Origin: Acidobacteriota bacterium
Lineage (GTDB): Bacteria > Acidobacteriota > Thermoanaerobaculia > UBA5066
Assembly: GCA_029567505.1 (NCBI GenBank)
Contig: JAKPXO010000044.1
Span: 1-40,135 of the forward strand
Direction: 5' to 3'
Length of the DNA: 40,135 nt
Of this stretch, positions 14,900 to 34,637 are shown piece by piece. The stretch's first letter is position 1; every line of letters begins with the position of its first letter. The notes below the pieces were generated by a model. The model made no database searches, was not told the origin of the DNA, and was given only the letters and a program-made list of their open reading frames with translations. The translations under genes were made by a program, and so were the position numbers.

Positions 14900-16390
14900 A
14901 TGAAAGCCGACCAGGTTCGCCGGAAGTTCTTCGCGGGAGTCCCCCGCTACGAGTGGATCGAGACGCTCGGGCAGGGGGGCGTCGGGATCGTCTACAAGGC
15001 GAAGGACCTCGAGCTCGACGAGGTCGTGGCGATCAAGGTCCTCTCGCCCGACATCGCCAAGGAGGACGAGGTCGTCCTCGCGCGCTTCAAGCGTGAGATC
15101 AACCTGAACCGGAAGATCAAGCACCCGAACGTCGCCCGTATGTACGACTTCGGGATCAGCGGCGAGTACCCCTACATCACGATGGAGGTCGTCCCGGGGA
15201 AGGACCTCTGGACGATGATCCGCGACGAGGGCCGGCTCCCGCCCGCGCGGGCGGTGCCGATCCTCCGCCAGATCGCGCGCGGCTGCTCGGCGATCCACGA
15301 GCTGGGCATCGTCCACCGCGACCTGAAGAGCCAGAACGTCGTCGTCGACGAGCAGGGCGCCGTCGCCATCGTCGACTTCGGCCTCGCGCGCTGGAACCTC
15401 GGCGGCGGCTTCACGCTCGACTCGATCATCCTCGGGACGCCGCAGTACATGTCGCCGGAGCAGGCGTCCGGCAAGACGGTCGACTCCCGGACCGACATCT
15501 ACTCCATCGGCATCATCGCGTTCGAGGCCCTCACGGGGCAGCTGCCGTTCACGGGCGACAGCCCGATCGCGGTCGCGATGATGCAGATCAACGACCCCGT
15601 CCCCGACCTCCTCCCGAAGTTCGCCGACGTCTCGCCGGACCTGCGCGCGATCGTCCTGAAAGCGCTGCGGAAGGACCCCGCGAAGAGGTACGCGACGGCG
15701 GCCGACCTCGAGGCCGACCTCGCGAACGCCGACCGGCTGCCGACGCCCCGCGAGGGGACGGTGCCGCACCCCGGGGGCGAGGACCCGCTCATGGCGCAGC
15801 TGGAGTCGGTACTCGGAGCGGTGGTCCTCCCGGCCCCGCCGGAGAAGCCGCGCCGGCCCTCTCCTTCGGACGCCTCGGCGCCGGTGACGCGCCCCTCCGT
15901 CTCTCCCCGTCCCGCGGCGGCGCGGCCGGCTCCGACGCCTCCGGCCGCGCCGGAGGCCCCGTCGCGGCCTCCGACCGTCCTGATCGTCGCCTCCGCGCCC
16001 GCCGAGCGGGCGGCCTGGAAGGCGGGCCTCGGCATCGGCCCCTGCCGCGTCCTGGAGGCGGGGAGCGGGCCGGAAGCTCTCGAGGCGCTCGTTCGCGAGC
16101 CGGCCGATCTCGTCCTGATGGACGTCGCCCTGCCGGGGATGGACGGATTCGACGTGACGCGGGTCATCAAGTCGCAGGCGAACCTCGTGGCCCTCCCGAT
16201 CCTCCTCGCCTCCGACCGGCTTGAGCGAAGCCACTACGCGTTCGGCATCCAGTCGGGCGCGAACGAGCTCCTCGTCAAGCCGATCGAGCCCGAGCGCCTG
16301 CGGGAGGCCGTCCGCGGCCTCCTCCGCCATCGCGGGTTCCCGGTCGAGGACGGTCCGGCGGGGGCGGGCCCGGTTGCCGGAAACGGCTGA
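14900..16390 (+). CDS. Ser/Thr protein kinase fused to a degenerate receiver domain
   Basis: The 496-residue protein has a Hanks-type kinase domain at about residues 18-280: glycine loop GQGGVGIVYKA, Lys46 in VAIKVL, catalytic Asp141 in HRDLKSQN, Asp159 of the DFG motif and the GTPQYMSPEQASG activation segment. All catalytic residues are present, so it should be active. A proline- and alanine-rich linker (about 300-355) leads to a receiver-like domain (about 358-484). This keeps the phospho-acceptor position Asp408 (LVLMDVALPGMDGFD) and Lys460 (LVKPIEP), but the acidic pair that binds magnesium is replaced by Ala364-Ser365. No membrane segment is evident, so it is likely cytoplasmic. Substrates are unknown; the adjacent coiled-coil gene is a candidate. 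Confidence 0.9.
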   Translation: MKADQVRRKFFAGVPRYEWIETLGQGGVGIVYKAKDLELDEVVAIKVLSPDIAKEDEVVLARFKREINLNRKIKHPNVARMYDFGISGEYPYITMEVVPGKDLWTMIRDEGRLPPARAVPILRQIARGCSAIHELGIVHRDLKSQNVVVDEQGAVAIVDFGLARWNLGGGFTLDSIILGTPQYMSPEQASGKTVDSRTDIYSIGIIAFEALTGQLPFTGDSPIAVAMMQINDPVPDLLPKFADVSPDLRAIVLKALRKDPAKRYATAADLEADLANADRLPTPREGTVPHPGGEDPLMAQLESVLGAVVLPAPPEKPRRPSPSDASAPVTRPSVSPRPAAARPAPTPPAAPEAPSRPPTVLIVASAPAERAAWKAGLGIGPCRVLEAGSGPEALEALVREPADLVLMDVALPGMDGFDVTRVIKSQANLVALPILLASDRLERSHYAFGIQSGANELLVKPIEPERLREAVRGLLRHRGFPVEDGPAGAGPVAGNG

Positions 16391-17418: not shown

Positions 17419-18225
17419 GTGTGCCTGATCGTCCTCGCCCTCCACGCGCACCCTCTCTACCCGCTCGTCGTCGCCGCCAACCGCGACGAGGCGCTCGCGC
17501 GGCCCTCGGCTCCGGCGGACTTCTGGCCGGACGCGGACGGCCTCCTCGCGGGACGGGACGAGGAGTCGGGCGGGACGTGGATGGGCGTCACGCGCTCCGG
17601 GCGCTTCGCCGCGCTGACGAACGTCCGCGACGGACGACCGCCCGAACCGCTCGCCCCGTCGCGCGGCGGGCTCGTCGTCCGTTTCCTCGCGGGCGGGGAC
17701 GAGCCTCTCGCGCACGCCCGGGCGGTCGCCGCCGAGCGCGTCCGGAGGAACGGCTTCAATCTCCTCGCCGGCGCGGGCGGCCGGCTCGCCTGGGTCTCGA
17801 ACGCCGGCGGCGGACCGGCAGAGGTGACGCCGGGCGTCCACGCGGTCTCGAACGCGGCCCTCGACTCGCCCTGGCCGAAGTCCCTCCGGACGGCCGCCGG
17901 CCTGCGTCGCGTCCTCGAGGACGGAGGCGCGATCGACCCCGAGGAGCTCTTCGCGATCCTGTCGGACCGTCGGATCGCCGCCGACGACGAGCTGCCGGAG
18001 ACCGGGGTCCCGCTCGAGGTCGAGCGGCTCCTGTCGGCGCCGTTCATCGTCGCGCCCGGCTACGGCACGCGCTCCTCGACGCTCCTCCTCGCGGCCCGGG
18101 ACGGCCGGGCCGAGCTCCTCGAACGACGCTTCGACACGTCGTTTCGCGAATCGGGGACGAGCCGTTTCGAGCTCGACTTCCCGGGCTGGAACGGCAGAGT
18201 CGAGACGCGGTTTCCGTCGTCCTGA
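17419..18225 (+). CDS. NRDE family protein (TANGO2-like)
   Basis: The 268-residue protein has the N-terminal MCLIVLALHAHP and the eponymous NRDE motif in VAANRDEALARPS, then GGTWMGVTRSGRFAALTNVR, RGGLVVRFL and FNLLAG, all typical of the NRDE (TANGO2) family. The cysteine directly after the initiator is conserved and resembles N-terminal nucleophile enzymes, though a catalytic role is unproven. Eukaryotic TANGO2 affects Golgi organisation and heme or lipid handling; the bacterial function is unknown. The gene starts with GTG at 17419 and lies just upstream of the decaheme cytochrome operon, from which it is separated by terminator-like hairpins, so co-function is not implied. Confidence 0.9.
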   Translation: MCLIVLALHAHPLYPLVVAANRDEALARPSAPADFWPDADGLLAGRDEESGGTWMGVTRSGRFAALTNVRDGRPPEPLAPSRGGLVVRFLAGGDEPLAHARAVAAERVRRNGFNLLAGAGGRLAWVSNAGGGPAEVTPGVHAVSNAALDSPWPKSLRTAAGLRRVLEDGGAIDPEELFAILSDRRIAADDELPETGVPLEVERLLSAPFIVAPGYGTRSSTLLLAARDGRAELLERRFDTSFRESGTSRFELDFPGWNGRVETRFPSS

Positions 18226-18414: not shown

Positions 18415-20379
18415 ATGTCACTTCTGCAGCGCGGACTGATGTTCGTCCTGGCGGCGGGGACGCTCGCGATTCCGGCGTCCGTCCCGCCCGACACCAGGGC
18501 CGGCGGACGAGCTGCGGCCCCGAACGTGGAGCCGCAGACCGCGAGCGTCTACACCCCGGCGGACAAGGAGTTCTACCTGACCGAGGATCAGATGGACTTC
18601 ATCCGCCCTGGCTTCAAGGTCGTCTTCGGGACCGTCACCGACATGGCGCCCGGCAAGAAGCCGAGCGTCGAGGTGACTCTCCTCGACCAGTTCGACCAGC
18701 CGCTCGACCGCCTCGGCGCGAAGACCCCCGGCGTGATCTCCCTCCGGTTCATCCCGGCGACGTGGGACCCGGCCACCGGCTACTACGACGACCTCATCAA
18801 CTCGTCGAACGGCAACCCCTCCCGCGACAACACCGGCAAGTGGGAAGACCTCGGCGACGGCAAGTACAAGTACACGTTCGCCACGGCGATGCCGAACTTC
18901 GACGTGAACAAGCCGATGACGCTCGCCGTCACCGGCAGCCGGAACATGGTCGACTACCTCGGCAAGACCTACTACGTGAACACGTTCAAGGACTTCGTCC
19001 CGGCGACGGGCGCCGCGGCGACGACCTGGGCCGTCACGACGACCGCGAAGTGCAACGCCTGCCACGACCCGATCGCGGGACACGGCTCGAACTACCGCGA
19101 GGCGAAGACCTGCGCCCTCTGCCACAACCCGAACGACATGGTTGGCGACCTCCAGCCGTTCGACATGGGGATCTGGCACCGGATCCACTCCTCGAACCTC
19201 GAGGACGTCGGCGAGATCACCTACCCGCAGGCCTACCTGAACAACTGCGAGGCGTGCCACGACGCCAAGCAGCCCCAGGGCACCGCGTTCCTCACGAAGC
19301 CCGGCGCCAACTCCTGCGGCGGCTGCCACGCGAACATCGACTTCGCGGCGGGCGTCGGCCACCCGGCCCAGGCGGACGACAGCGCCTGCGCGAACTGCCA
19401 CCAGCCCGACAGCGGCCAGGAGTTCGACGCCTCCGTCAAGGGCGCGCACGTCCTCCTCTACGACTCCAAGCAGCTCAAGGGCCTCAAGGCCGAGATCCTC
19501 TCCGTCACGAACGTCGCCCCCGGCCAGAAGCCGATCGTCACCTTCAAGCTCAGCGACAGCACGGGCGCCCTCGATCCGAAGCCGTTCGGCTCGAACGTGA
19601 ACGTCCTCGTCGCCGGCCCGACGACCGACTACGCGACGTGGCCCTCCGTCCGGCAGAACGCCTCCGGCGCGACCTTCGACGGGACGAACGCGGTCTTCTC
19701 GATGAACTGGACGATCCCGGACGACTTCAAGGGCTCGCTCACGTTCGCCATCGAGTGCCGGCGCACCGTCCAGGTGAACGGCGCGAACTACACCGAGGGC
19801 GCGTACAACCCGCTCTACACGGCCGCCGTCACCGGGACGAAGGTCGATCGCCGCGTCGTCGTGACCGAGAGCAAGTGCCTCGCCTGCCACGACTGGCTCC
19901 CGCTCCACGGCGGCCAGCGCGTTCGGGTCCAGGAGTGCCTCCTCTGCCACGCCCCGAACGGTGACGACGCCTCGCGCCGGCCGGCCGGCGACGTCCCCGA
20001 GTCGATCCAGATGGCCCGCATGATCCACCGGATCCACTCCGGCGAAGAGCTCACGCAGGACTACACGGTCTACGGCTATGGCGGCACGCCGTACCACTTC
20101 AACGAGGTCGTCTACCCGGGCGACCGACGCAACTGCACCGCCTGCCACGCCTCCGCGGCGACGGCGAACCTGCCGATGCCGAAGGGCGCGCTGAACGTCC
20201 CGACCCCCCGCGACTACTTCACGCCCCAGGGGCCCGGCACGACCGCCTGCCTCGGCTGCCACGACACCCGGGACGCCGCCGCCCACGCCTACCTGAACAC
20301 CGCGGTGTTCGGCGAGGCCTGCGGCGCCTGCCACGGCGCCAACTCCGAGTGGTCCGTCGCGAAGGTCCACGCCCGCTAA
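18415..20379 (+). CDS. mtrC: OmcA/MtrC family decaheme c-type cytochrome
   Basis: The 654-residue protein has ten CXXCH heme-binding motifs, at residues 213, 233, 278, 301, 325, 488, 508, 574, 612 and 636. Five fall before and five after a long heme-free region. This reproduces the OmcA/MtrC plan: N-terminal beta domain (about 45-205), pentaheme I, second beta domain (about 345-480), pentaheme II. Such proteins sit on the outer surface of the outer membrane and pass electrons to metals or other acceptors. The N-terminus MSLLQRGLMFVLAAGTLAIPAS is a Sec signal, but there is no lipobox cysteine, unlike the Shewanella lipoproteins. The start follows AAGGAGGAG. It is the first gene of a three-gene conduit operon. 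Confidence 0.94.
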   Translation: MSLLQRGLMFVLAAGTLAIPASVPPDTRAGGRAAAPNVEPQTASVYTPADKEFYLTEDQMDFIRPGFKVVFGTVTDMAPGKKPSVEVTLLDQFDQPLDRLGAKTPGVISLRFIPATWDPATGYYDDLINSSNGNPSRDNTGKWEDLGDGKYKYTFATAMPNFDVNKPMTLAVTGSRNMVDYLGKTYYVNTFKDFVPATGAAATTWAVTTTAKCNACHDPIAGHGSNYREAKTCALCHNPNDMVGDLQPFDMGIWHRIHSSNLEDVGEITYPQAYLNNCEACHDAKQPQGTAFLTKPGANSCGGCHANIDFAAGVGHPAQADDSACANCHQPDSGQEFDASVKGAHVLLYDSKQLKGLKAEILSVTNVAPGQKPIVTFKLSDSTGALDPKPFGSNVNVLVAGPTTDYATWPSVRQNASGATFDGTNAVFSMNWTIPDDFKGSLTFAIECRRTVQVNGANYTEGAYNPLYTAAVTGTKVDRRVVVTESKCLACHDWLPLHGGQRVRVQECLLCHAPNGDDASRRPAGDVPESIQMARMIHRIHSGEELTQDYTVYGYGGTPYHFNEVVYPGDRRNCTACHASAATANLPMPKGALNVPTPRDYFTPQGPGTTACLGCHDTRDAAAHAYLNTAVFGEACGACHGANSEWSVAKVHAR

Positions 20380-20391
20380 CCACATGAGGAC

Positions 20392-20421
20392 GCCCGCCCC
20401 CCGGCGAACCGGGGGGCGGGC
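20392..20421 (+). repeat. Very strong GC hairpin between mtrC-like and mtrA-like genes
   Basis: GCCCGCCCCCCGG (20392-20404) pairs perfectly with CCGGGGGGCGGGC (20409-20421) around a CGAA loop, a 13-pair stem with a stable GNRA-like tetraloop position. There is no T-run after it, so it more likely stabilises the upstream message, or partly attenuates downstream expression, than ends transcription. Confidence 0.6.
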
Positions 20422-20466
20422 CTCCCGCCGGGCACGCACGGCGCGTCCGGCGGAGAGAGGACTGAG

Positions 20467-21354
20467 ATGGTGAAACGATTCCTCGGCCTCACCGGCCTCG
20501 TTCTCCTGGTCCTCGGGGTGACGTGGATTGGTGGACCGGCCCTCGCCGCGGACGCGCCGAGCTGCGGTGACTGCCACGAGCAGTCGAAGAGCTTCGGCGC
20601 GAACCCGCACGGGCGGGCGGCCTGCGACCTTCCCGGAGACGCGGCCTGCGCGAGCTGCCACGGCGACGGAAAGGCCCACATGGAGGCGGGCGGCGACGCG
20701 TCGCTCATCAAGGGCCTCCGCGGAGCCGACGGCTCCGAGACCTGTCTGACCTGTCACGACGTCACGACCGAGCACACCTCCTACCGCCACGGCGTCCACG
20801 GCGTCAACGACACCGTGAACTGCCTGACCTGCCACTCCGTCCACACGCCCAACGCGAAGGAGCCGAAGCTCCTCGCGAAGCGCCAGACGGAGCTCTGCGC
20901 CTCCTGCCACCAGGGGCCCGCCTCCGCGATGCGGAGCAAGGCCTACGTCCACCACCTCGACCGCGGCGGCATGACCTGCGCGTCGTGCCACGAGCCTCAC
21001 GGCCGGCGGGGCGAGGGCGCGCTGAAGCTCACGCGCCAGGGCGAGGCTCCGTGCCTCTCCTGCCACACCGAGAAGCGCGGTCCGTTCGTCTACGAGCACG
21101 GCGGCCCGACCACGGGCGGCATGACCGGCGGATGCCTCACCTGCCACGAGCCGCACGGCTCGAACAACCCCAAGATGCTCACCCGGTCCCGGGTCGACCT
21201 CCTCTGCCTCGAGTGCCACTCGACGCTCGCGGCGGGCGCCCTCGGCTCGCAGCCCCCGGCGACGCACAACATCTCCCTCCCGCGCTGGCGGAACTGCACG
21301 ACCTGCCACGTGGCGGTCCACGGCTCCAACCGGTCGCCGAAGCTGCTGAAGTAG
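20467..21354 (+). CDS. mtrA: MtrA/DmsE family decaheme c-type cytochrome
   Basis: The 295-residue periplasmic protein has a Sec signal peptide ending GPALAADA, then ten CXXCH motifs spread from residue 33 (CGDCH) to 277 (CTTCH). The size and spacing match MtrA/DmsE/PioA cytochromes, which form a straight heme wire inserted in an outer-membrane barrel. Histidines between the motifs, such as those in HGVHGVN and HHLDRGG, are candidate distal ligands. One extra cysteine lies in AACDLPGD, outside any heme motif. The protein would take electrons from periplasmic or inner-membrane carriers and deliver them to the surface cytochrome. The start has GAGAGGACTGAG upstream, and the next gene follows after 12 bases. 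Confidence 0.95.
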   Translation: MVKRFLGLTGLVLLVLGVTWIGGPALAADAPSCGDCHEQSKSFGANPHGRAACDLPGDAACASCHGDGKAHMEAGGDASLIKGLRGADGSETCLTCHDVTTEHTSYRHGVHGVNDTVNCLTCHSVHTPNAKEPKLLAKRQTELCASCHQGPASAMRSKAYVHHLDRGGMTCASCHEPHGRRGEGALKLTRQGEAPCLSCHTEKRGPFVYEHGGPTTGGMTGGCLTCHEPHGSNNPKMLTRSRVDLLCLECHSTLAAGALGSQPPATHNISLPRWRNCTTCHVAVHGSNRSPKLLK

Positions 21355-21366
21355 GAGGAGCCGGAG

Positions 21367-23307
21367 ATGCGCGCGAATCGATTCCTCCTCGCCGGCCTCC
21401 TGCCGGCGCTCCTCCTCGCCGGCGTCGCGTCCGCCCAGGACGTGCCGCTGGACGTCGAGATTGGCTACCGCTTCACCGACATCAAGGGCAACGAGGAGAT
21501 GTTCAAGAGCCAGCTCGACGAGGAGGACGGACTCCAGCTCCGCTCCCTCTCGTGGGGCCTCGGCGACATCCGCGACTCGAACGCCATCGACCACTTCCGC
21601 CTCGACGCCGCCGACCTCGGCGCCGGCCCGAACGGCCTCCTTCGTGTGGAGGCGGGCCGCACCGGCTACTGGAAGCTGAACGCCTCCTGGCGGCGCTCGG
21701 AGCGCTACTCGAACCTCCCGACCATCGCGAACCCGTTCCTCGGGGGCGGGTCGCTCGACAGCCAGCACTCCTACGACCGGACCCGGAACTCCGTCGACGT
21801 CGACCTCGAGCTCCTCCCGGGCAAGAAGATCCGTCCGCTCCTCGGCTTCAGCTACAGCCGCTACTCCGGCCCCGGGCTGACGACCTACCACGTCGGGCAG
21901 GACGACTTCCAGCTCCAGCAGGACCTCAAGGAGCGCGACACCGAGTACCGCGTCGGCGTCGCTTTCGACGCCGGCCCGGTCTCCGGCCAGGTCGTCCAGG
22001 GATGGCGGTCGTTCAAGTCCGACGAGAACCTGAAGCTCCTCGCGGGCTCCGGGAACGAGTCGGGCACCATCCTCGGCGTCCCCGTCTCGCTCGACTCGCT
22101 CACGCGCCGCTCGAAGGCCGACTTCGACACGCCGGTCACGTCGGCCGTCGTGAGCGGGAAGCTCGGCTCGGCGGTCCGCCTCACCGGCACGTACGTCCGG
22201 GCCGACGCCGACGGCGACGACACGAGCGACGAGACCCTCTCCGGCAACCTCGTCTCGTACGAGATCCTTCGCTACTTCAAGGGCCTCGCGGAGTCCTCGG
22301 CGGCGACGTCCGAGGCGCTCTCCTGGCGCGGCAGCATCCGGGCCGACGTCCACCTTTCGGCGGGCTTCGACCTCTCCACCGGCTTCACCCGGCGCAACCG
22401 GGAGCTCGAGGGCTACAGCCTCGTCAACGACCTCTGGGGGACGACGACGACGTTCAGCGGGTTCGACCCGCGCGACGTCTCGACGATCCTCGAGGCGCGG
22501 ACGCGTCTGGAGCGGAGCGAGGACATCTTCGACGTCCGCGCCAGCCTCAAGCTCGGAAAGGCCGTCACCCTTCGCCTCGGCTTCGTCCAGAACCAGGCCG
22601 ACGTCGACGTCGAGAACGACGCGGCCGAGGTCGTCGTCCCGGGCAACCAGGGCGGCTCCTACGACCGGCGCGTCCAGGCGATGGAGGGCGGCCTCGCGTT
22701 CAAGCTCGGCGGCCTCTCCCTCGGCGCCGACTACGTCCGCGAGCAGGCCGACGCCGCCGTCGTGCGCACCGATTTCCGGGAGCGCGACCGGCTCCGCCTC
22801 CGCGGCGCGTGGCAGGCCGCCAAGTGGCTTCGCGTCGGCGGCAACGCCGAGATCGTGGACACGTCCAACGACGACTTCGGCTACGGCTTCGAGGGCGACA
22901 TGAACACCTACGGGGGCGACGTCGAGATCGCGCCGTGGGAGTTCCTCACCTTCCGCGTCGGAGCCGGTCGGTTCGAGGGCGACCATTCGATCGCCTACCG
23001 GGTCCCCCAGACCTGGGCGAACGCCGACTCCGTCTACCGCGAGCGGGGCGACTCGCTCGAGGGCGGCCTCACGCTCAACCTGAAGCCCTTCGCGCTCGAG
23101 GCCCTCTACCGGACCTTCGAGAACGATGGCAGCTTCGCCTACGAGCTCGACCGGGCGCGCCTGCGCGCGTCCTGGGACTTCACGGAGCTCTTCGGCATCG
23201 CCGCGGAGTGGGACCTCGACGACTACGCCGAGACCGCCCGCACCTACGGGACCGGAGCGGACTTCAAGGCGAACCGCTACGGCATCTATCTCCGGATCCA
23301 CAAGTAG
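21367..23307 (+). CDS. mtrB: MtrB/PioB family outer-membrane beta-barrel protein
   Basis: The 646-residue protein has a signal peptide (LLAGLLPALLLAGVASA, cut before QD) and then a long series of amphipathic beta strands with aromatic girdles, such as GYWKLNASWRR, FSYSRYSG and LRLGFVQNQ. It ends in the strand RYGIYLRIHK. This matches the decaheme-associated MtrB/PioB barrels that sheath the MtrA cytochrome in the outer membrane. The whole protein contains no cysteine, so the N-terminal CXXC found in Shewanella MtrB is absent. The family call rests on context, length and barrel pattern. It is the last gene of the operon, with a strong terminator after it. Confidence 0.9.
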   Translation: MRANRFLLAGLLPALLLAGVASAQDVPLDVEIGYRFTDIKGNEEMFKSQLDEEDGLQLRSLSWGLGDIRDSNAIDHFRLDAADLGAGPNGLLRVEAGRTGYWKLNASWRRSERYSNLPTIANPFLGGGSLDSQHSYDRTRNSVDVDLELLPGKKIRPLLGFSYSRYSGPGLTTYHVGQDDFQLQQDLKERDTEYRVGVAFDAGPVSGQVVQGWRSFKSDENLKLLAGSGNESGTILGVPVSLDSLTRRSKADFDTPVTSAVVSGKLGSAVRLTGTYVRADADGDDTSDETLSGNLVSYEILRYFKGLAESSAATSEALSWRGSIRADVHLSAGFDLSTGFTRRNRELEGYSLVNDLWGTTTTFSGFDPRDVSTILEARTRLERSEDIFDVRASLKLGKAVTLRLGFVQNQADVDVENDAAEVVVPGNQGGSYDRRVQAMEGGLAFKLGGLSLGADYVREQADAAVVRTDFRERDRLRLRGAWQAAKWLRVGGNAEIVDTSNDDFGYGFEGDMNTYGGDVEIAPWEFLTFRVGAGRFEGDHSIAYRVPQTWANADSVYRERGDSLEGGLTLNLKPFALEALYRTFENDGSFAYELDRARLRASWDFTELFGIAAEWDLDDYAETARTYGTGADFKANRYGIYLRIHK

Positions 23308-23328
23308 AAGCCCGGACACGGAACCGGG

Positions 23329-23366
23329 AAGGTCGCCCTTGCCGAAAGGCAAGGGCGACCTTTTTT
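23329..23366 (+). terminator. Strong intrinsic terminator after the cytochrome operon
   Basis: AAGGTCGCCCTTGCC (23329-23343) pairs perfectly with GGCAAGGGCGACCTT (23348-23362) around a GAAA tetraloop, followed immediately by a T-run to 23366. The stem also has A residues on its 5' side, so it could serve both strands, ending the convergent glycosyltransferase transcript as well. Confidence 0.95.
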
Positions 23367-23432
23367 CGTGGGCGCGTCGGAGAGCCGGTGGGCGGCGTGT
23401 CCGCCGTCCCGCGGGCGGCGGATGCCTGAGGC

Positions 23433-30008: not shown

Positions 30009-33000
30009 ATGGTCCGCGCCATGGCGCCCGGCCCACGCGCGCTCGCCCCGGGGATCCTCGCGATCCTCCTCGTTGCTGACCCTGCGGAGGCGCTCGACCC
30101 CGGCAAGGCGATCTCCCAGTTCCGGCACGAAGTGTGGGGCGCGCGGCAGGGGCTTCCCCAGAGCTCGGCCGAGGCGTTGACCCAGACGCGCGACGGCTAC
30201 CTGTGGATCGGCACCCAGGAGGGGCTCGCGCGGTTCGACGGAGTGCGGTTCGTCGTCTGGGACAAGGCCTCGGCGCCGGAGCTCCGACACAACCGCGTTC
30301 TCTCTCTCCTCGAGGACCGCAGCGGCCGTCTCTGGCTCGGAACGGAAGGGGGAGGCCTGAGCGTTCTCCAGGACGGGACGATCCGGACCTTCGGGCGTTC
30401 CGAAGGGCTCGGGAGCGACATCGTGAGGAGCCTCGCCGAGGACGGCGCCGGAACGCTCTGGATCGGGACCGAGGCGGGCCTCGCGACCCGGTCCGGAGGC
30501 TCCTTCGAGACCCGCGAGGCGTCGCAGGGGCTCCCCGCAGGAGCGGTCCCGGCGGTCGCGGTGGACGAGGCCGGCGTCGTCTGGGCCGGGACGGACAGGG
30601 GGCTCTTTCGGCGCGCGGGGAAACGCTTCGTCGCGGCCGGCGTCTCCGACGCGGTCCAGTCGATCCACTCGGGCGCGGACGGGACGCTCGTCGTCGGGAC
30701 GGCCCACGGGCTGCGCCTCCTGCGGGAGGGGCGCGTCGAGGCTCTCGGCCGCGCGGACGGGCTTCCGGGCGAGGTCGTGAACTGCGCCCTGCGGGACCGG
30801 CGCGGGACCCTCTGGATCGGAACGTCCGGGGGACTCGCCCGGTGGGCCGGGGGTCGACTCTCGACGTTCACGCTCCGCGAGGGGCTTCCCGCGCCGAACG
30901 TCCTCGCCCTCCTGGAGGACCGGGAGGGGACGCTCTGGGTCGGCACTCAGGACGGCGGCCTGAACAAGCTCTCGGACGCGTCGTTCACGCCGTGGGGGAT
31001 CGCCGAGGGCCTCTCGGCGAACGTCGCCTGGGCCGTCTTCGTCGATCGGGACGGGGCCGTCTGGTCGGGGACCGACTCGGCGGGCGTCAACGTCCGGAGA
31101 GGGGAGCGGGTCACGACGATCGGCACGGCCGACGGGCTCGCCGCTCCGGGCGTCCAGGCGATCTGGCAGGCGCCCGACGGGGCCGTCTGGCTCGGGACCC
31201 GGGGAGGCGGGGTCAGCATCGTCCGGCAGGGACGGGTCGTCCGGACACTCCGGAAGGCGGACGGGCTCGCGAGCGACTCGATCTGCGCGATCACGGGGAC
31301 GCGGGACGGGAGCGTCTTCCTCGGCGGACGCAGCGGCGGGCTGACCCGGATCGGGCCCGACGGGACCTTTCGCAGGTGGGGAGCCGCCGAGGGCCTCCGG
31401 AACGAGACGGTCCACGCGCTCCTTCAGGATCGCGACGGGAACCTCTGGATCGGGACGAACGGAGCCGGGCTCTTCCGCTTCGACGGTGGCCGGTTCACGC
31501 GGTTCGGGCGCGAGCAGGGGCTCTCGATCGAGATCGTCAACACGATCCACGAAGGGGACGACGGGACGCTCTGGGTCGGGACCTACGGCGGAGGGCTGAA
31601 CCGCTTCCGCGACGGCCTCTTCTCGGCCGTGACGACGCGCGAGGGGCTCTACGACGACGCCGTCTTCGCGATCCTCCCGGACGGGCAGGGGAACCTCTGG
31701 ATCTCGTGCAACCGCGGGGTCTACGCCGTCTCTCTCCGGGAGCTCGACGCGGTGGCCCGCGGCGCGGCGCGTCGGGTCGGGTGCCGGACGTTCGGCGTCG
31801 AGGACGGGATGCGCAACCGGGAGTGCAACGGGGCGAACCAGCCCGCCGGCGCCCGGGGTCCCGACGGGCGTCTCCACTTCCCGACGATCGAAGGGGTCGT
31901 GACCGTGGACCCGGCGGGACTCCACAGGAACCCCGTTCCGCCGCCGGTCCACGTCGAGGTGGTGAAGGTCGACGACGTCGTCGAGTCGGCGCGGCGCTTC
32001 CTCGAGCTCGCGCCGGGGGCGCGCCGGTTCGAGTTCCAGTACACGGCGCCCAGCCTCCGCGTTCCCTCGCGGGTCGTCTTCCGGGTCAGGCTCGAGGGGG
32101 TCGACGCCGACTGGGTCGAGGTCGGCACGCGCCGGACGGCCTGGTACACGAGCCTCTCGCCGGGCTCGTACACGTTCCGCGTCGCCGCGGCGAACGAGAG
32201 CGGCGTCTGGAACGAGAGCGAGGCCTCCTTCGCGTTCCGCCTGAAGCCCCGTCTCGACCAGCGCCCGTTCTTCTGGCTTCTCATCGGGACGTTCGCCCTC
32301 GCCGTCGCCTACACGGGCTACCGCTTCCGCGTCGCGCGGCTCGAGGTCCGCGAGCGCGAGCTCGTGGAGGTCGTCGAGGAGCGGACCCGGAGCCTGCGCG
32401 AGGAGAAGGAGCGGACGGAGCGGGCGCTCGCGGAGGCGGAACGGCAGCGGGAGCGGGCGGAGGAGGCGGGCCGCGCCGCCGAGGAGGCGAACCGGACGAA
32501 GAGCGACTTCCTGGCGATGACGAGCCACGAGCTCCGGACGCCGCTCAACGCGATCCTCGGCTACAGCGAGCTGCTGATGGAGGAGATCTCCGAGCGCCGC
32601 CTCCCGGGGCTCGCCGAGGACGTCGAGAAGGTCCATTCCGCGGGCCGGCACCTCCTCGGCCTGATCAACGACCTCCTCGACCTCTCGCGGCTGGAAGCGG
32701 GCAAGCTCGAGCTCTCGGTCGAGGAGACGGACCTCGCCCCGCTCCTCGCCGGCGTCGTCACGACGATGCGTCCCCTCGTCGAGCGGAACCGGAACCGGTT
32801 CGTCACGGAAGGGACGGAGACGGCGGGGCGGCTCGTGACCGACCCGACGCGCCTCCGGCAGATCCTCTTGAACCTCCTCGCGAACGCCGCGAAGTTCACG
32901 CACGACGGGGAGGTCGCCTTCCGCGTCCAGCGGCTCGACGGGTCCGGAGGAGGCCGCCTCCGGTTCTCCGTGACCGACACCGGGATCGGCATGACCGAGG

Positions 33001-33239
33001 AGCAGGTGGGGCGTCTCTTCCGGGCGTTCGAGCAGGCCGACCCGCAGGTCACCCGGCGCTTCGGCGGGACCGGGCTCGGCCTCGTCATCACGCGCCGTCT
33101 CGCGCGGATGATGGGGGGCGACGTGTTCGTCGAGAGCCGGCCCGGGGAGGGCTCGACGTTCGCCGTCGAGCTTCCCGGGAGGTCCGCGGAACCGTCCCGC
33201 GCGGCCGATCGGGAGAGCGGATCTCAGGATCGTGTGTAA
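30009..33239 (+). CDS. Two-component regulator propeller sensor histidine kinase
   Basis: The protein is about 1076 residues. A signal peptide ([13 protein letters not shown]) is followed by a sensor of at least 13 propeller repeats with the form DGxLWIGTxxGL (roughly residues 40-580), enough for two seven-bladed beta-propellers. A Y_Y_Y-like domain (about 655-740) contains [18 protein letters not shown]. One membrane helix ([20 protein letters not shown], about 753-773) and a coiled coil lead to the kinase: His840 in [12 protein letters not shown]-box [10 protein letters not shown], and G-boxes DTGIGM and GGTGLGL. The protein ends soon after, with no receiver or DNA-binding domain, so a separate response regulator is needed. 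ATG 30021 is an alternative start. It is divergent from the export operon. Confidence 0.93.
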
Positions 33240-33260
33240 AATGTAGCTCCGACCCTGAGG

Positions 33261-33305
33261 GGGTTCCGGGAGGGTTCCGAGCGGCCTAGAATGCGGCCCA
33301 AGGAG
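33261..33305 (+). promoter_or_regulatory. Possible promoter region of the cDPG synthetase-like gene
   Basis: The 8-base sequence GGGTTCCG occurs twice, at 33261 and 33272, eleven bases apart, and TAGAAT at 33287-33292 resembles a -10 hexamer. AAGGAGA at 33299-33305 is a strong ribosome binding site deciding the ATG at 33315. The promoter call is weak; the ribosome binding site is clear. Confidence 0.4.
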
Positions 33306-33314
33306 ACTCCCTCT

Positions 33315-34637
33315 ATGGTGAAAGGCGTACGTCGGCTCGCGATCATCGGCGCTGCCGGCCGGGACTTCCACAACTTCAACACGACCTATCGCGACGACCC
33401 GTCGGTCGAGGTCGTCGCGTTCACCGCCACGCAGATTCCGGGCATCGCCGGACGCCGCTACCCCGTCGAGCTCGCGGGCCCTCGCTACCCGCAGGGGATC
33501 CGGATCGTCCCGGAGGACGACCTCGAGCGCCTGATCCGCGACGAGCGGATCGACGTCTGCGTCTTCTCCTACTCCGACGTCGCGCACGAGACGGTCATGC
33601 ACCTGGCCTCGCGCTGCATCGTCGCGGGGGCCGACTTCGAGCTCCTCGCGAACGACCGGACGATGATCCCGTCGATGGCCCCCGTCATCGCGATCACGGC
33701 GGTGCGGACCGGCGCGGGGAAGAGCCAGACGACCCGCTTCGTCTCCTCGATCCTCAAGAAGCTCGGGAAGAAGGTCGTCGCGATCCGCCACCCGATGCCG
33801 TACGGCGACCTCGCCGCGCAGGCCTGCCAGCGCTTCGCGAGCTACGCGGACCTCGACCACCACAAGTGCACGATCGAGGAGCGCGAGGAGTACGAGCCGC
33901 ACATCGACAACGGCTTCATCATCTACTCGGGCGTCGACTACGGGATGATCCTGAAGGCGGCCGAGAGCGAGGCCGAGGCGATCCTCTGGGACGGCGGGAA
34001 CAACGACCTTCCGTTCTACCGCCCCGACCTCCACATCTGCATCGCCGACCCGCTCCGCCCGGGCCACGAGATGCTCTACCACCCGGGCGAGGCGAACTTC
34101 CGCCGCGCCGACGTCATCGTCATCAACAAGTGCGACTCGGCCGACCCGAAGGCGATCGAGGCCATCGAGGCGCAGGCCGCGAAGGTCAACCCGAAGGCGC
34201 GCGTCCTCCGCGCGAACTCCCCGGCCACCTGCGAGAAGCCGGAGCTCGTCAAGGGGAAGCGGGTCCTCGTCATCGAGGACGGCCCGACGCTCACGCACGG
34301 AGGGATGACCTACGGGGCCGGCGTCGTCGCGGCGAAGAAGCTCGGCGTGGCCGAGATCGTCGACCCGACGCCGTACGCCGTCGGCTCGATCAAGGCGACC
34401 TACGAGAAGTACCCGAACGCCAAGGGGATCCTCCCCGCGATGGGGTACAGCCCGCTCCAGATCGCCGAGCTCGAGGCCACGATCGAGAAGACGCCGTGCG
34501 ACGCGGTCGTCTCGGGGACCCCGATCGACCTGACGCGGGTCCTGAAGATCGGCAAGCCCGCCACGCGCGTCCGCTACGAGCTGGAGCCCCTGGTCCCGGG
34601 TCTTCTCGACGAGGAAGTCGCGAAGATCATCCGCTGA
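33315..34637 (+). CDS. Cyclic 2,3-diphosphoglycerate synthetase-like protein
   Basis: The 440-residue cytoplasmic protein matches the family of the archaeal cyclic 2,3-diphosphoglycerate synthetase. It begins RRLAIIGAAGRDFHNFNTTYRDDP and includes VVAFTATQIPGIAGRRYP, a P-loop with Lys136 in AVRTGAGKSQTTR, and the GTPase-like NKCDSAD block. The archaeal enzyme makes the thermoprotectant cyclic 2,3-diphosphoglycerate from 2,3-diphosphoglycerate and ATP. Bacterial homologues are widespread but largely uncharacterised, so the product here is not assured. The ATG at 33315 has an AAGGAGA site eight or so bases upstream; a start at 33291 would lack one. A strong terminator follows, making this a single-gene transcript. 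Confidence 0.9.
   Translation: MVKGVRRLAIIGAAGRDFHNFNTTYRDDPSVEVVAFTATQIPGIAGRRYPVELAGPRYPQGIRIVPEDDLERLIRDERIDVCVFSYSDVAHETVMHLASRCIVAGADFELLANDRTMIPSMAPVIAITAVRTGAGKSQTTRFVSSILKKLGKKVVAIRHPMPYGDLAAQACQRFASYADLDHHKCTIEEREEYEPHIDNGFIIYSGVDYGMILKAAESEAEAILWDGGNNDLPFYRPDLHICIADPLRPGHEMLYHPGEANFRRADVIVINKCDSADPKAIEAIEAQAAKVNPKARVLRANSPATCEKPELVKGKRVLVIEDGPTLTHGGMTYGAGVVAAKKLGVAEIVDPTPYAVGSIKATYEKYPNAKGILPAMGYSPLQIAELEATIEKTPCDAVVSGTPIDLTRVLKIGKPATRVRYELEPLVPGLLDEEVAKIIR

Follow-up and report, generated by a model that had tools for sequence, protein, structure and literature searches.

A probable MtrCAB-class electron conduit without a lipid anchor in Thermoanaerobaculia, with ImcH-like and CbcL-like cytochromes as candidate electron sources

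Introduction

A three-gene cluster in an uncultured member of the Thermoanaerobaculia (Acidobacteriota) raises the question of whether it encodes an extracellular electron conduit of the MtrC-MtrA-MtrB type and, if so, how its surface cytochrome is retained and what supplies its electrons. The stretch of DNA analyzed here, hereafter the window, is 40,135 nucleotides long and corresponds to one contig (C136) of a metagenome-assembled genome of 5.1 Mb in 532 contigs, 96% complete. An earlier note, made from the sequence of the window, had read the cluster as such a conduit with non-standard features. Our analysis favors, with a probability of roughly 0.7, an acidobacterial anchor-free conduit of the MtrCAB class, in which electrons would pass from MtrA through the barrel to a surface MtrC and which is most likely fed by ImcH-like/CbcL-like cytochromes.

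Organization of the operon

The mtrC, mtrA and mtrB genes lie on the same strand between positions 18415 and 23307 and form one operon with a strong terminator at its end (Table 1). The earlier description of two ten-heme cytochromes and a barrel in a single terminator-closed operon is borne out by the counts of CXXCH motifs (10 and 10), by the cysteine count of the barrel (0) and by the stability of the terminator, which a simple terminator scanner did not pick up but which folding reveals. Shine-Dalgarno sequences, read directly from the DNA, support the start codons of mtrC (AAGGAGGAGATCCCATG) and mtrB (TAGGAGGAGCCGGAGATG). The hairpin between mtrC and mtrA may play a part in processing or stabilizing the mRNA. 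Next to the operon are genes for a TANGO2-family protein and for glycosyltransferases. Among named records, the closest is a Thermoanaerobaculia metagenome-assembled genome whose MtrC is 85% identical to that of the window.

Table 1. Features of the operon, with coordinates in the window
Feature	Position	Strand	Basis
mtrC-like surface decaheme cytochrome, 654 aa	18415..20379	+	10 CXXCH in two sets of five; fold of four domains; lipobox cysteine absent; TIGR03507, PF22113, AF2 model
GC-rich mtrC-mtrA intergenic hairpin lacking a T run	20388..20425	+	20377-20430 folds at -39 kcal/mol
mtrA-like periplasmic/transmembrane decaheme cytochrome, 295 aa	20467..21354	+	10 CXXCH; TIGR03508; 6r2q_A profile match
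mtrB-like outer-membrane barrel, 646 aa	21367..23307	+	26 predicted strands, no cysteine; AF2 model, PDB match 6r2q_B
Intrinsic terminator of the operon	23325..23370	+	perfect stem, GAAA loop, T run, -34.2 kcal/mol; just 3' of mtrB stop

The decaheme cytochromes

The CXXCH motifs of MtrC lie at residues 213, 233, 278, 301 and 325 and at residues 488, 508, 574, 612 and 636, in agreement with the five-plus-five split noted earlier, and ten such motifs in a protein of this length are far beyond chance. The single non-heme cysteine is C448, which corrects the earlier note. MtrC scores 337.5 bits against the NCBIfam model TIGR03507 (OmcA/MtrC decaheme cytochromes; curated cut-off 209.3) and also matches PF22113. 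Its AF2 model, of modest confidence (mean pLDDT 71), is divided into beta, pentaheme, beta and pentaheme segments, and Foldseek places it closest to crystallized MtrC proteins (TM 0.52-0.59, E as low as 1e-26). The motifs, the predicted secondary structure and the structural matches all agree with the TIGR03507 architecture, in which beta domains set two pentaheme domains apart.

MtrA exceeds the curated cut-off of TIGR03508 by a narrow margin (196.5 versus 192.2 bits), and this model takes in both MtrA and DmsE types. A profile built from MtrA matches 6r2q_A, from the crystal structure of the Mtr complex, with an E value of 7e-46.

The outer-membrane barrel

The barrel scores only 10.4 bits (E 0.23) against PF11854 (MtrB/PioB), below the family threshold of 23 bits, whereas the MtrB of Photobacterium, a gammaproteobacterial positive control, reaches 510 bits. 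Alignment of the barrel profile with this single MtrB by hhalign was not significant, and a search of the PDB sequences with the same profile gave no relevant match. The AF2 model is confident (pLDDT 82) and contains 26 strands, the number reported for MtrB (PMC7198977). Among all PDB chains its best match is MtrB itself (6r2q_B, TM 0.67), followed by unrelated receptor barrels of the TonB-dependent and SusC types at 0.36-0.51. The barrel of a further genome (G022) matches the window barrel with an E value of 6e-13 and passes PF11854 with 34.4 bits, so the two families are joined transitively. By the curated sequence test, then, the protein is not a PF11854 member, and a profile search placing it outside MtrB/PioB was what the earlier note had named as grounds for rejecting its reading. 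The fold and the transitive homology rescue the assignment, and the barrel is probably a remote homolog of MtrB that would work as MtrB does.

Cysteines and the missing lipid anchor

Like the Shewanella MtrCAB complex (6R2Q), the window operon encodes two decaheme cytochromes and a 26-strand barrel, and its MtrC has four domains with five-plus-five hemes. It differs in its cysteines and in the divergence of its barrel from PF11854. The N terminus of the window MtrC is hydrophobic and weakly charged, contains no lipobox (LXXC) and is followed by no cysteine before residue 213. No lipobox cysteine is found in any of 29 MtrC N termini of Thermoanaerobaculia relatives, and the motif is absent as well from the conduit MtrCs of other acidobacterial classes. 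A misassigned start codon is ruled out by the strong Shine-Dalgarno sequence at the chosen ATG and by the absence of a lipobox from the upstream frame. The Photobacterium control has both a lipobox in MtrC and a CSDC motif in MtrB. Lipoboxes (LIGC, LVGC) are also present in an OmcA-like family of the same phylum (f39; about 890 residues), which may be of Holophagaceae-like lineage. These proteins belong, like the window MtrC, to the TIGR03507 decaheme family but are not linked to conduit genes, no mtrA or barrel being found within the flanks covered.

The window barrel has no cysteine in its 646 residues, and an N-terminal CXXC is missing from all 41 barrels compared (no C..C). Similarly, the CX8C redox (flavin) switch in domain III of Shewanella MtrC (PMC9973256) is absent from the window MtrC and was not found in 30 sequences. 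The two departures from the Shewanella type that the earlier note singled out, an MtrC without a lipobox and a barrel without cysteines, are real, but they characterize the acidobacterial clade as a whole and are not peculiarities of this locus or of a single genome. In vitro, a soluble Shewanella MtrC that lacks the lipid site still assembles with MtrAB into a working complex and conducts normally (PMC8415449), so the absence of an anchor is compatible with a working conduit.

Conservation across Acidobacteriota

Operons with mtrC, mtrA and mtrB on the same strand and the same 10/10/0 pattern of hemes are found in about 30 genomes across families of Thermoanaerobaculia. The gene order recurs in other acidobacterial classes, where the barrels are in most cases 21-25% identical (profile-profile E value 3e-86). 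Adjacency of mtrA and mtrB is invariant among loci with both flanks covered. The pairwise divergences of MtrC, MtrA and the barrel are correlated (r 0.55-0.85), with none of 2000 permutations as high. The MtrA tree mostly follows taxonomy and families, with exceptions such as G004, which lies within the group of another family, and G326, which comes from another class and falls inside Thermoanaerobaculia. Photobacterium sits on a long branch in this tree, so its position says little.

Operons with MtrAB only also occur in Thermoanaerobaculia (L084-L086).

The locus is thus ordinary for its lineage, and acidobacterial MtrCAB has been reported before. Group 5 of Baker et al. 2022 (PMC8805035) comprises acidobacterial mtrCAB clusters of Bryobacterales and unclassified Acidobacteriia in which, as in the window, the immediate cluster lacks a quinone oxidoreductase. 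Group 5 differs in a tetraheme gene that follows mtrB and is absent from the window, and the portion of that paper available to us mentions neither lipidation nor Thermoanaerobaculia.

The electron source

The earlier note had called the electron source missing, and this is true of the locus, as no quinol oxidase gene lies within positions 18415 to 23307. Unlike Shewanella, the genome also yields no CymA-type gene in a PF03264 (NapC/NirT) search. The matches obtained are an NrfH beside NrfA (contig C386), an ImcH-like fragment (C457) and a weak sub-threshold match inside a CbcL-like protein (C204), which leads us to reject a CymA elsewhere in the genome.

The last two matches provide candidates. 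The CbcL-like protein contains 13 CX2CH motifs, a cytochrome b561 domain (PF01292, 57.9 bits) and five transmembrane segments by a crude hydropathy count, in keeping with a CbcL defined by a multiheme N terminus, about six transmembrane segments and a b-type cytochrome. The ImcH-like (NapC/NirT-type) gene is truncated by the contig end. A full-length homolog in a congeneric genome (G003) has three transmembrane segments, one CX3CH (CGEACH), five CX2CH motifs and 40.5 bits on PF03264, as expected of an ImcH with three N-terminal transmembrane segments, a CX3CH, 5-9 CX2CH motifs and NapC/NirT similarity. These architectures follow PMC6295460, and both proteins are named by domains and architecture, not by comparison with Geobacter reference sequences. 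G003 carries both the imcH-like and the cbcL-like gene on a single contig, no more than about 4 kb apart and collinear with C204 and C457.

In the genus to which the window belongs, separate contigs carry mtrCAB and the quinol oxidase genes. In 10 genomes from 7 families, imcH-like or cbcL-like genes are linked to mtrCAB. In G015, mtrC-mtrA-mtrB, two CbcL-like genes and imcH are all on one strand, and in G011 and G012 the genes downstream of mtrB encode an 11-heme protein, a cytochrome b and ImcH. G016, G038, G041 and G050 carry imcH and/or a cbcL-like gene within about 8 kb of mtrCAB. Linkage is also seen in other classes: imcH sits between mtrC and mtrA in G268, a CbcL-like frame opens directly after the mtrB stop in G364, and imcH is divergent from mtrC in G155. 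Co-occurrence of mtrB and imcH is significant by Fisher's test (24/3/11/23, p 8e-6), although the test takes no account of common descent and on its own is weak support.

The Geobacter proteins are likewise inner-membrane multiheme quinol oxidases of the same architectures, but the 2018 survey records no mtrAB adjoining imcH (PMC6295460), whereas the acidobacterial relatives show this linkage. We found no earlier report of it in a partial search of the literature. Absent from the locus, encoded elsewhere in the genome and adjoining mtrCAB in relatives, the ImcH-like and CbcL-like candidates would, judged by their sequences, largely resolve the missing electron source.

Discussion

The reading of the locus as an MtrCAB-type conduit is supported by the profiles of MtrC and MtrA, by the modeled folds of MtrC and of the barrel and by the conserved operon; the score of the barrel below the PF11854 cut-off stands against it. 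In this conduit, the ImcH-like and CbcL-like inner-membrane cytochromes would oxidize the quinol pool, and electrons would cross the periplasm to MtrA, a putative ten-heme wire threading the 26-strand barrel. MtrA would hand them on to a surface-exposed MtrC, and MtrC may in turn reduce acceptors outside the cell, for example oxides of Fe(III) or Mn(IV). MtrC would be kept at the surface not by a lipid anchor but by its contact with MtrA and the barrel.

The same conduit could in principle run in reverse, with Fe(II) or some other donor outside the cell supplying the electrons, as in Pio and Mto systems, and an aerobic oxidase receiving them at the end. The genome does encode a heme-copper oxidase subunit I, the MtrAB-only operons belong to the same class, and homologs of CbcL, MtoC and MtrH are reported both from Fe(II) oxidizers and from Fe(III) reducers (PMC6295460). 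However, the operon includes MtrC, and ImcH homologs are reported in the same survey only from Fe(III) reducers. Furthermore, another member of the class, Thermoanaerobaculum aquaticum, is an iron reducer according to PMC9671151, which reports one MtrC and two MtrA in MAG mg007; the available text of that work gives no description of a barrel, an anchor or a quinol oxidase linkage. Outward flow is favored because of the ImcH homologs of Fe(III) reducers and this cultured iron reducer, and we regard inward flow as unlikely.

Less likely still is a DmsEF-like use, in which electrons would go to a terminal reductase outside the cell or to one particular soluble acceptor rather than to minerals. 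MtrA does lie just above the cut-off of a model that includes DmsE, but a full-length MtrC is present, and no molybdopterin reductase gene is seen beside the operon, where the neighbors are of the TANGO2 and glycosyltransferase families. That the barrel is an unrelated porin, with both cytochromes confined to the periplasm, is scarcely credible: the missed PF11854 threshold, the failed hhalign comparison and the unanchored MtrC would fit, but the prediction of 26 strands, the clear lead of MtrB among the structural matches, the intermediate barrel of G022 and the invariant mtrA-mtrB adjacency argue otherwise.

Beyond the outward-flowing conduit itself, we tentatively suggest, at somewhat less than even odds, that it represents a separate acidobacterial branch of Mtr systems: an anchor-free MtrC held only by contact with MtrAB, a barrel beyond MtrB/PioB, and supply by ImcH/CbcL instead of CymA. 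Such a system would be a hybrid of Shewanella and Geobacter types and largely vertical in its class.

The class of machine is already known; what is new is the anchor-free MtrC, the very divergent barrel and the Geobacter-type genes that adjoin mtrCAB in relatives. Since the standard profile misses the barrel, surveys of electron-transferring bacteria that rely on profiles may count too few Acidobacteriota. In Geobacter, ImcH and CbcL feed Omc, Pcc and Ext conduits; the linkage described here suggests a modular arrangement in which conduits of the outer membrane and gates of the inner membrane can be exchanged. It also offers a concrete quinol oxidase candidate for acidobacterial Mtr systems, a point left open in PMC8805035 and not seen in PMC6295460. 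Finally, the lipid anchor of Shewanella MtrC has no structural role in vitro (PMC8415449), and the anchor-less acidobacterial clade would provide a natural test of this in living cells.

Cytochrome genes related to mtrCAB

MtrAB operons also occur in other members of the class Thermoanaerobaculia (loci L084, L085 and L086), with barrels sharing 20-22% identity with that of the window; mtrC was not found within the stretch covered at each of them. In genome G022, an MtrAB operon is followed by a cytochrome cd1-like gene.

The window's own genome encodes a second MtrA-like decaheme on contig C464, scoring 170 bits against the MtrA/DmsE profile TIGR03508 (below the cut-off of 192.2), with a 7-heme protein 3 kb away. 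In genome G030, the genes immediately preceding mtrCAB encode a related decaheme and a 7-heme protein. An extra decaheme also adjoins mtrCAB in G267, and clusters with Photobacterium MtrA in a tree with long branches. At loci L119 and L124, CbcL-like fusions adjoin imcH-like genes, whose products are candidate quinol oxidases of the inner membrane.

Features in the window and at related loci
Feature	Location	Strand	Remarks
Serine/threonine kinase fused to response-regulator receiver domain	window 14900-16390		PF00069 + PF00072
TANGO2-family protein (NRDE)	window 17419-18225		directly upstream of mtrC
GC hairpin	window 20388-20425		between mtrC and mtrA
Two long ORFs	window 30134-34637	+	no Pfam match
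MtrA-like decaheme and 7-heme protein (C464)	L044 6390-8399 and 11703-12569	- and +	
Decaheme and 7-heme gene (G030)	L071 1513-4407		
Extra decaheme (G267)	L158 3912-4919	-	
CbcL-like fusions	L119 5780-8917 and L124 5153-8335		19 to 23 heme motifs

Other features of the window

The reading frame of the two long ORFs may be spurious, because HlyD and MacB genes occupy the minus strand in that region. The hairpin separating mtrC from mtrA is highly stable and lacks a T run; it could perhaps set the ratio of mtrC to mtrAB.
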